A stretch of 64,000 bases of DNA from Hyphomicrobiales bacterium (GTDB lineage: Bacteria > Pseudomonadota > Alphaproteobacteria > Rhizobiales > Rhizobiaceae): the NCBI GenBank assembly GCA_900473915.1, contig UCNG01000004.1, forward strand, positions 1 through 64,000, read 5' to 3'. Positions within the stretch are counted from its first letter, which is position 1; every line of letters begins with the position of its first letter. Under the pieces are notes generated by a model that saw only the letters and a program-made list of their open reading frames with translations, was not told the origin of the DNA and ran no database searches. The position numbers and the translations under genes are program-made. Below, one piece after another: positions 22,985 through 25,424 of the stretch.

Positions 22985-23006
22985 CACCTATTTTATTTTA
23001 TAGGTG
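22985..23006 (+). terminator. AT-loop hairpin after recN
   Basis: CACCTAT (22985-22991) pairs perfectly with ATAGGTG (23000-23006) around TTTATTTT, starting directly after the recN stop. The downstream tract is only moderately T-rich, so terminator function is likely but not certain. It also marks the start of an AT-rich stretch that continues into ligA. Confidence 0.55.
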
Positions 23007-23081
23007 CGTTTATTCTGTTCTACTGCTCCGTAATAATTTAATGAGACACTCTTTTATTGCCGATGTAGTGAGGGTGAAACA

Positions 23082-25424
23082 GTGAAAGAATTACTGAATC
23101 GCAACGATAAGATTAATGTCATTGCTGACGATCTTCTGTTGTTGGACCCAAACTCCTATAAGGCTGATGTGGTTGGCGCTTTGAGCAAAGCCAGCGATGA
23201 ATTTATAGATATTCTCTATTCTAAAATTCATGAAAAGATAGAGGGCCTCTCTAGCTCGCAAAAAAAGAAATGGCTTGAGAAAGCTGATGAGCTCTTACTT
23301 GAAGATACGCATCATATTTTTAATGATTTGAATAAGTATCTTAGACGTGCTGCTAAAGCTTATAATGATGGGCGCCCAATCGCCACTGATGCTGAGTATG
23401 ATTCAGCATGGCGTCTTGCGACTCTGTTGTCCAAAGGACGAAAAAATATACAGAGTTCCCTAGGGGAGTTATATAAAGTTGGGAGTGCGCCTGCACCATC
23501 GTTTGTGCCTGTACGTCATGCGCGTCCGATGCTTTCGCTTGGCAATGCGTTTTCGGATGAGGACGTGCGCGATTTTGTCGGCAGCGTTTATCGCTTTCTG
23601 GGGCAGTTGCCTGATAATTCCATCGCTTTTACCGCCGAGCCGAAGATCGACGGGCTTTCCATGTCGATCCGTTATGAGAACGGAGTTCTGGTCAGCGGCG
23701 CGACGCGCGGTGACGGCACGACTGGCGAGAATGTAACGGCAAATATCCGCACCATCGCCGAGATTCCCAACAGGCTCCCAGCGGGAGCGCCTTCCGTCGT
23801 GGAAGTACGCGGCGAGGTCTATATGGCCAAGAGCGACTTCCTCGCACTCAACGAGCAGATGGCCGCTGAAGGCAAGCAGACCTATGTGAACCCGCGCAAC
23901 ACGGCAGCAGGTTCGCTGCGCCAGCTTGACGCCAAGGTGACCGCAAGCCGCAAGCTGAAATTCTTCGCCTATGCTTGGGGAGAAATGTCCGAAATGCCCG
24001 CTGACACCCAGATGGGCATGGTCGAGACGTTCCGCGAATGGGGATTCCCGGTCAATCCTTTGACAAAGCGACTTCACGGCGCGGACGAACTCATTGCGCA
24101 TTACCGCGCCATCGGTCTTGAGCGCGCGCAGCTCGACTATGATATCGACGGCGTCGTCTACAAGGTTAACCGGCTGGACTTGCAGACGCGGCTTGGCTTT
24201 CGTTCGCGCAGCCCGCGTTGGGCTATCGCGCACAAGTTTCCGGCAGAACAGGCCACGACGATCTTGCGCGGTATCGACATTCAGGTCGGGCGCACCGGCG
24301 CAATGACCCCGGTTGCGCGACTGGAGCCGATTACCGTCGGTGGTGTCGTGGTGACCAACGCAACGCTGCATAACGAAGACTACATCAAGGGTATTGGCCT
24401 CAAGGGCGAGCGTATCCGCGCGGATGAGCATGATATCCGCATCGGCGATACGGTCATCGTGCAGCGCGCAGGTGACGTTATCCCGCAGATCGTCGATGTT
24501 GTGCTGGAGAAGCGCCCGGCCAGTGCCGCGGCGTTCGAGTTTCCGCATGAATGCCCGGTCTGTCACAGCCATGCGGTGCGGGAGGAGGGCGAGGCGGTCT
24601 ATCGTTGCACCGGCGGTCTGACCTGCGCGGCGCAGGCCGTCGAGCGCATTCGCCATTTCGTGTCGCGCAATGCGTTCGATATTGAAGGCCTTGGCGAAAA
24701 GCAGGTCGAGTTCTTCTTCCATGCCGAAGATGACAGTCTGAAGATCAAGTCTCCAGCCGATATTTTCACGCTGCAGAAGCGACAGGCGGGTTCTCTCAAG
24801 AAGCTTGAGAACATCGAAGGTTTTGGCGCGACTTCCGTGAAGAAGCTTTACGATGCGATCAATGACCGGCGTGAGATTGCCCTGCATCGTTTTCTGTTTG
24901 GCCTTGGCATCCGTCATGTGGGCGAGGTGAATGCCAAGCGTTTCGCGCGGGCCTATCTGTCGTATGCCGCGTTTGAAAAAGCTGCTCTGGAAGCCGTTGC
25001 GCCGAAAGAAGGTGACCGCACCGACAAGGGCAATGAAGCCTGGCAGGACCTGATTGCGGTTGAGGGTATCGGTTCCATTGTTGCCGAAGCGGTCGTGGAT
25101 TTTTATGCCGAGCCGCATAACCGGGAAGTGCTTGCGGCTCTTCTCGCGGAGGTGACGCCGCTTGATGAAGAAGCGCGGGTTGCTACCGGTTCGCCGGTCG
25201 AAGGCAAGACGGTGGTGTTTACCGGCAGTCTGGAGCGCATGTCGCGCGATGAGGCCAAGGCCATGGCCGAACGCTATGGGGCAAAGACCGCCGGATCGGT
25301 GTCGAAGAAGACCGATCTTGTGGTGGCGGGGCCGGGAGCAGGCTCCAAGCTCGCCAAGGCGTCGGAGCTGGGCATCGAAGTCATCGATGAAGACGCCTGG
25401 TTCAAACTGGTTGGAGAAGAATAA
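23082..25424 (+). CDS. ligA: NAD-dependent DNA ligase LigA with atypical N-terminus
   Basis: Replicative DNA ligase. The lysine that becomes adenylated is K188 in EPKIDG. The OB-fold, the four-cysteine zinc site (CPVC...C-x5-C), the helix-hairpin-helix repeats and a C-terminal BRCT domain are all present. At 780 residues it is about 60 longer than the usual 720. From the GTG start to about base 23480 the DNA is AT-rich, with codons unlike the rest. Residues 1-135 do not look like normal LigA: only DAEYD (103-107) of domain Ia is recognisable. The expected YH pair that binds the NMN part of NAD+ is replaced by AY (or YN with a gap). From residue 140 on (FVPVRHARPMLSLGNAF) it is ordinary alphaproteobacterial LigA. 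The stop overlaps the next start (TAATG). Confidence 0.93.
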   Translation: MKELLNRNDKINVIADDLLLLDPNSYKADVVGALSKASDEFIDILYSKIHEKIEGLSSSQKKKWLEKADELLLEDTHHIFNDLNKYLRRAAKAYNDGRPIATDAEYDSAWRLATLLSKGRKNIQSSLGELYKVGSAPAPSFVPVRHARPMLSLGNAFSDEDVRDFVGSVYRFLGQLPDNSIAFTAEPKIDGLSMSIRYENGVLVSGATRGDGTTGENVTANIRTIAEIPNRLPAGAPSVVEVRGEVYMAKSDFLALNEQMAAEGKQTYVNPRNTAAGSLRQLDAKVTASRKLKFFAYAWGEMSEMPADTQMGMVETFREWGFPVNPLTKRLHGADELIAHYRAIGLERAQLDYDIDGVVYKVNRLDLQTRLGFRSRSPRWAIAHKFPAEQATTILRGIDIQVGRTGAMTPVARLEPITVGGVVVTNATLHNEDYIKGIGLKGERIRADEHDIRIGDTVIVQRAGDVIPQIVDVVLEKRPASAAAFEFPHECPVCHSHAVREEGEAVYRCTGGLTCAAQAVERIRHFVSRNAFDIEGLGEKQVEFFFHAEDDSLKIKSPADIFTLQKRQAGSLKKLENIEGFGATSVKKLYDAINDRREIALHRFLFGLGIRHVGEVNAKRFARAYLSYAAFEKAALEAVAPKEGDRTDKGNEAWQDLIAVEGIGSIVAEAVVDFYAEPHNREVLAALLAEVTPLDEEARVATGSPVEGKTVVFTGSLERMSRDEAKAMAERYGAKTAGSVSKKTDLVVAGPGAGSKLAKASELGIEVIDEDAWFKLVGEE

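Follow-up and report, generated by a model that had tools for sequence, protein, structure and literature searches.

The window analysed in this study is a 64,000-nucleotide stretch of DNA from a Hyphomicrobiales bacterium (NCBI GenBank assembly GCA_900473915.1, contig UCNG01000004.1, positions 1 to 64,000 of the forward strand), in which recN is followed by ligA, the gene for the DNA ligase that depends on nicotinamide adenine dinucleotide (NAD+). This ligA is headed by a foreign module, composed of an N-terminal extension of about 77 residues and a divergent Nlig-Ia domain. The features of the locus are as follows:

21317 to 22984, forward strand: recN, native up to 22968.
22969 to 23515, forward strand: foreign replacement tract rich in adenine and thymine (AT), delimited by homology breaks at 22968 and 23516 and by a dip in guanine-plus-cytosine (GC) content.
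23082 to 25424, forward strand: chimeric ligA, 780 amino acids (NCBIfam PRK07956 and TIGR00575).
23082 to 23312, forward strand: N-terminal extension, residues 1-77, with the motif IxxIADDxLLxxPxxxK kept in the module alignments.
23313 to 23510, forward strand: predicted divergent Nlig-Ia (NAD+/NMN-binding) domain, residues 78-143, with Y94, D103, Y106 and D107 (profile-profile comparison, PDB matches and residue mapping).
23511 to 25421, forward strand: native LigA body with adenylation, OB, zinc finger, HhH and BRCT domains (Pfam domains and DNA alignment).

The replacement tract spans 547 base pairs (bp) and reaches from the final recN codons through the intergenic DNA to about codon 144 of ligA, standing in place of the native spacer and domain Ia codons. 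Comparison of the recN-ligA junction with 12 relatives gave a two-sided break in homology at 22968 and 23516/23517. DNA similarity ends at 22968 in seven of the 12 (L001, L002, L003, L005, L006, L008 and L012), while the remaining five lose it between 22958 and 22971. It returns at 23516 or 23517 in ten of the 12, the exceptions being L010 (23501) and L007 (23528). The tract differs from the corresponding DNA of all 12 relatives, the equivalent interval measures 380 bp in L001, 389 bp in L002 and 451 bp in L012, and domain Ia is ordinary in all eight relatives whose LigA was read. The GC content of the tract is 40.4%, compared to a mean of 57.8% for the window (standard deviation 3.3; 547-bp segments, step 10), making it the lowest-GC segment of that length, with the next lowest non-overlapping one at 47.9%. 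At third codon positions, GC is 0.37 in ligA codons 1-144, 0.69 in codons 146-780 and 0.66 in recN. These results bear out an earlier sequence-only reading of this DNA, which had described a sharp change in composition at the 5' end of ligA and proposed that this end was replaced by foreign DNA to give a chimeric ligase. The AT-rich stretch stands as that reading described it, and its limits, from the recN stop to about 23480, do not, since the tract starts inside the end of recN and extends some 35 bp beyond 23480. The terminal residues of RecN are SSAN (the last four), compared to AENSALAI in L001. The window is a chromosomal segment of the Brucella/Ochrobactrum group, and its ligA is chromosomal: RecN clusters with those of B. 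tritici and B. daejeonensis and shares 97% identity with that of L001, and the nearest ligA loci include Brucella and Ochrobactrum. An inverted repeat, CACCTAT-N8-ATAGGTG, was seen by eye at 22985-23006, directly 3' of the recN stop and within the tract. Elsewhere in the window, the second most AT-rich 547-bp stretch (42231-42777, 47.9% GC) covers an open reading frame (ORF) at 42417-42836 with no Pfam match at E ≤ 0.001.

The ligA ORF (23082-25424, forward strand) begins with GTG and is an intact frame of 780 codons that stays open across the junction. The full-length protein scores above the curated cut-offs of both PRK07956 (843.9 bits; cut-off 369) and TIGR00575 (720.5 bits; cut-off 444.45), its adenylation domain matches PF01653 at E 5.3e-93, and the lysine of the KxDG motif is K188, in EPKIDG. 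From 23516/23517 onwards the body DNA forms a single alignment block, 84-89% identical to L001, L012 and L002, and this block and the Pfam domains confirm the earlier view that the remainder of the protein is an ordinary LigA. The window's LigA shares with canonical bacterial LigA (PRK07956/TIGR00575) the adenylation, OB, zinc, HhH and BRCT domains, the recN-ligA locus and the core residues of domain Ia. It differs in its extra N-terminal domain of about 77 residues, its foreign AT-rich DNA, the apparent loss of the His of the Tyr-His pair and a domain Ia that is 24% identical to the canonical query in a profile alignment. LigB (PRK08097) has the NAD+-ligase core in common with the window's LigA, which nevertheless scores only 136.4 bits compared to a PRK08097 cut-off of 498.

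In E. coli LigA, the contacts made by domain Ia include Tyr22 and His23 (the Tyr-His pair), Asp32, Tyr35 and Asp36. The sequence-only reading held that residues 1-135 were unlike LigA except for DAEYD at 103-107 and that the Tyr-His pair was not conserved. A loss of domain Ia is not supported, and residues 78-143 are instead read as a divergent, recognisable Nlig-Ia domain, because they match canonical Ia by profile, match LigA structures in the PDB and keep the contact residues. A profile of eight modules matched canonical Rhizobiales Ia over its last 68 columns with an hhalign probability of 98.7% (E 3.4e-16), positions 78-147 of the module profile match domain Ia of solved PDB LigA structures (best E 4.7e-6), and the alignment of the NCBIfam LigA models to the window begins at residue 81 or 84. 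In a phmmer alignment to E. coli LigA (2owo), D103, Y106 and D107 of the window correspond to residues 32, 35 and 36. In addition, 17 aligned LigAs (eight with the module and nine ordinary) show no variation at Y94, P99, D103 and D107 and almost none at Y106. Y94 falls in the Tyr column of the MAFFT alignments and is probably the equivalent of E. coli Tyr22; a one-residue deletion at the adjacent position, right after Y94, would mean that the His23 position is lost; the earlier claim about the pair would then hold for the His and probably not for the Tyr. The P-D-[YF]-D core occurs in all ten modules known from this study, which keep the equivalents of Asp32, Tyr/Phe35 and Asp36; PMC8123306 describes Y35 and D36 of LigA as essential for NAD+ binding.

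Two known groups of proteins resemble this domain. Like the PF22745 Nlig-Ia family, which includes solo proteins of phages, it would be an NAD+-binding Ia domain with a P-x(2,3)-D-x-x-[YF]-D core, and it differs from them in being fused to the extension and a ligase body and in being missed, in the window's copy, by the Pfam model. The NAD+-dependent LigA of phages (PHROG 3869) likewise has a divergent Ia, and all eight modules scanned match it at E ≤ 1 (best 4.4e-7; window 0.045); the extension separates the two, as its hidden Markov model (HMM) matches none of the 31 viral LigA loci. The extension itself was assigned to no family by Pfam, PHROGs or PADLOC, which returned weak or single-member matches only, and on the module alignments it is best described as a conserved domain matching no family in the libraries searched. 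The possibility that it is a second, decayed copy of Ia was rejected, as it has no profile similarity to Ia. Pfam matches of the modules to DNA-mimic, HD and similar families were confined to single members (E 0.00096 to 0.31) and judged to be chance, and one single-member match in the defence library (E 0.0041) was disregarded.

The module recurs in other genomes, and the counts that follow come from differing profiles and thresholds and are lower bounds. Within the genus, one of 35 genomes (G017) contained a module homologue at E ≤ 0.01, about 30% identical, so the N-terminus is not one that all close relatives share. Seven of 397 genomes of the order were matched, two of them across the module (G381 and G107), and an extension-only profile found the same two among 357 genomes of the order, an overlapping draw. 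In the family screen 110 of 394 genomes were matched, the great majority by way of the Ia part alone. The match in G563 spans the module, and G475 (37-127) was identified as a further bearer on reading its locus, L113. The family of G381 gave seven matches among 136 genomes, four of them with the module (G381, G1208, G1291 and G1185), while that of G107 gave one in 11, G107 itself. At the level of the class 191 of 385 genomes were matched and the extension HMM matched none of the 30 loci fetched, and at the level of the phylum one of 249 genomes was matched at E ≤ 1e-11, through the Ia part of an ordinary LigA. Rhizobium metallidurans DSM 26575 (L060) was the one module bearer among 80 LigA loci chosen for their likeness to the window's LigA. 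The weak rows of the order, family and class screens (E 1e-2 to 2e-8, mostly from query position 55 or later) were read as canonical Ia from their coordinates; for the family and class rows this agrees with the extension HMM, which matches only L092 among 60 loci from those two screens. One further candidate, G968 (24-133), was rejected as an ordinary LigA on reading. Ten module loci, the window included, are therefore recognised, nine clear and that of G475 provisional: L113 is divergent and has no IADD motif, and it scores 41.6 bits with a leave-one-out module HMM and 14 bits with the extension part alone. As a side observation, L017, from a record titled Bacillus subtilis SK6B4, has a recN-ligA region placed among those of Brucellaceae, Phyllobacteriaceae and Bartonellaceae, a sign of mislabelling or contamination.

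The cleanest case of a swap is R. metallidurans. Its DNA is 94-95% identical to L058 and L071, whose ligA is normal, on both flanks of a break that opens at the recN stop (5467/5476) and closes at the VGAAP codons of ligA (6169). L161, L162, L163 and L164 have similar borders, one at the end of recN and the other immediately ahead of the adenylation domain. When the nine module rows are mapped on a recN tree of 132 rows, eight changes are required, of which starred branches force no fewer than six. Shuffling gave a mean of 8.8 changes, and 88 of 500 shuffles were as low as observed, so the module label is not clustered on this tree, which was made with a quick method, has several long branches flagged and leaves out ten duplicate loci and loci with short RecN matches (L113 among them). 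In each of the nine other genomes the AT content of the module exceeds that of the adenylation domain, by between 6 and 23 percentage points; the 131 other loci in this comparison still include L060 and L113, the latter being the group minimum. Overall, these patterns lead us to read the NAD+-binding head of an essential enzyme as having been swapped repeatedly and horizontally.

There are several potential explanations for these patterns. One possible, if unlikely, explanation is neutral allele exchange, in which rare recombination with divergent LigA alleles of other Hyphomicrobiales needs no selective reason. It would fit the restriction of the modules found to one order, the retention of the Ia core and right-hand junctions placed where ligA homology permits recombination. 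However, identities among eight modules are 22-53%, compared to 53-84% for the bodies of the same pairs, and most module pairs fall between 20 and 40%; for the window and G017 the bodies are 83-84% identical and the modules 30%, and the modules of L060 and L113 are 20-44% identical to the others in local alignments. The extra conserved domain, the scattered occurrence and the AT-rich DNA in GC-rich hosts also speak against purely neutral exchange.

The tandem layouts of three module loci bear on a second explanation, that the new 5' end is the scar of an integrative element, which brought this end with it on insertion into ligA and has since been lost by deletion. In G1208 (L165) the module follows the native Ia, whose DNA still aligns to two of five relatives (L088 and L157), and in G563 and R. 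metallidurans an Ia-like unit stands ahead of the module, the two units being 43% identical over 67 aligned positions. Such layouts resemble insertion beside an older domain, and the AT-rich tracts could also be those of an element. However, the first units of G563 and R. metallidurans are themselves AT-rich and homologous to each other, and probably arrived with the module. The distance from the end of recN to ligA is 41-218 bp in the eight clear module loci other than the window, which leaves no element between the two genes, although no integrase scan of wider neighbourhoods was made. The corresponding gap in G475 (L113:342-1329) is 988 bp long and holds a 222-codon reverse ORF of host-like GC. 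A deleted element is an improbable source of the modules. In the first unit of R. metallidurans the Tyr region is gone, as are several residues ahead of the Tyr-Asp pair, a decay that would be expected were the second Ia the functional one.

It is very improbable that the chimeric ligA is degraded and that another ligase does its work. The apparently missing His and the divergence of Ia would be in keeping with degradation, and matches to ligases dependent on adenosine triphosphate (ATP) occur in four of seven module genomes, as they do in the ordinary relatives G001 and G002. These seven are the module genomes other than R. metallidurans, G475 and the window's own, and each of them has exactly one NAD+-ligase adenylation domain. 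The remaining three (G381, G1291 and G1185; completeness not stated) gave no ATP-dependent ligase match, a finding at odds with the earlier suggestion that the chimera might depend on another ligase. Together with the single NAD+-dependent ligase in all seven, it indicates that the chimeric LigA should work; the intact frame and the retained Asp32, Tyr/Phe35 and Asp36 equivalents also speak against degradation. An assembly chimera in the window's record, which might be suspected because the composition changes sharply and no second record with this exact sequence was found, has a negligible likelihood given that eight independent genomes have homologous modules at this junction and that the frame is open across it.

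Taken as a whole, the locus is best explained by a foreign recN-proximal module that was gained by recombination from Hyphomicrobiales carriers and heads a working ligase, a reading to which we give a probability of about 0.75. The module would likely enter by homologous or homology-assisted recombination from other Hyphomicrobiales that carry it, and a donor with the same recN-ligA order would supply homology on both sides. The chimera is likely to be the working replicative ligase, whose new Ia would present NAD+ to the adenylation lysine K188 as in any LigA. The catalytic mechanism is most likely ordinary and the evolutionary behaviour is not. A changed use of NAD+, as proposed in the sequence-only reading, is possible. 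The architecture is real and recurring, a variant of LigA. Among the papers listed by literature searches, no title or abstract start dealt with exchange of the LigA N-terminus.

Why the module has been kept and diversified is a separate matter. In one module genome, G563, a solo Nlig-Ia of 94 amino acids (L203:9900-10184, G563:C21) has neighbours assigned by PHROGs to a primase-helicase, DNA polymerase, RNA polymerase, amidase and methyltransferase, a gene set that we take to be T7-like. This stretch of phage genes lies at a contig end and could represent either a prophage or a phage contig within the assembly. Two Rhizobium phages encode an Nlig-Ia without a ligase body, annotated as hypothetical and above the PF22745 cut-off in both: EVB27_114 of RHph_TM16 (L205:1360-1866, E 1.1e-15) and EVC24_035 of RHph_I4 (L204:1429-2118, E 8.2e-7). 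PMC9503650 describes solo Nlig-Ia proteins in 81 phages, without a ligase save for one exception, and proposes a role in NAD+ sensing or shielding. The occurrence of such proteins in Rhizobium phages and in G563 makes a conflict over domain Ia conceivable. One idea, which is doubtful, is that some antagonist acts on domain Ia (an NAD+-like inhibitor, a toxin or a phage factor) and that the module has been retained and diversified for changing this domain or shielding it. The more specific scenario is more doubtful still: domain Ia would be a battleground in which solo Nlig-Ia proteins of Hyphomicrobiales phages target the host ligase or compete with it, and from which hosts would escape by importing module alleles, sometimes stacked beside the old Ia before it decays. 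Drift, a toxin or an NAD+-like antibiotic are other possible causes.

It is also important to note the results that weigh against our interpretation that a foreign module was imported by recombination and heads a working ligase. No donor was found, and the plasmid and phage comparison suggested by the sequence-only reading yielded no source. The tblastn searches (N-termini of the window and G563 against phages and plasmids, of G381 against phages and of G107 against plasmids) gave nothing below E 0.5: the ordinary LigA of Edwardsiella phage pEt-SU came up at that value, in two records, and the only other matches were to four Streptomyces plasmids, at E 0.9. The failure of the extension HMM on the viral LigA loci is a further such point, with L171 having only 81 bases upstream of its match. 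Additionally, the one LigA obtained from scans of viral contigs has an ordinary Ia, and the extension had no match there; the plasmid LigAs matched by the G563 protein begin at query residue 148 or later in the 40 rows listed, out of 185 records; and 8-residue patterns of the window's N-terminus found no relative in genome and viral contigs, because the modules are too divergent for such patterns. The window's Ia apparently lacks the His of the Tyr-His pair, and Pfam Nlig-Ia (PF22745) gives no match to the window's own module; that model matches four of eight modules at E ≤ 1 (best 2.7e-4) and is weak here, the ordinary LigA of G001 scoring 25.3 bits, below the cut-off of 27. The module of G1291, a low-GC genome, exceeds the body in AT content by only 6 points and could be native to that genome, and an extension HMM built without L113 misses that locus at E 0.01, hence its provisional status. 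Finally, a solo Nlig-Ia and a module LigA occur together in only one of seven module genomes, with one ordinary genome beside, which proves nothing.

The NAD+-binding head of LigA, which is both essential and a drug target, is usually treated as fixed, and in the reading preferred here this head has been exchanged repeatedly by horizontal transfer. The module LigAs provide natural variants for asking which Ia residues are needed, and they could give the solo Nlig-Ia proteins of phages a testable target. The module swaps may also point to an unrecognised antagonist of bacterial DNA ligase.
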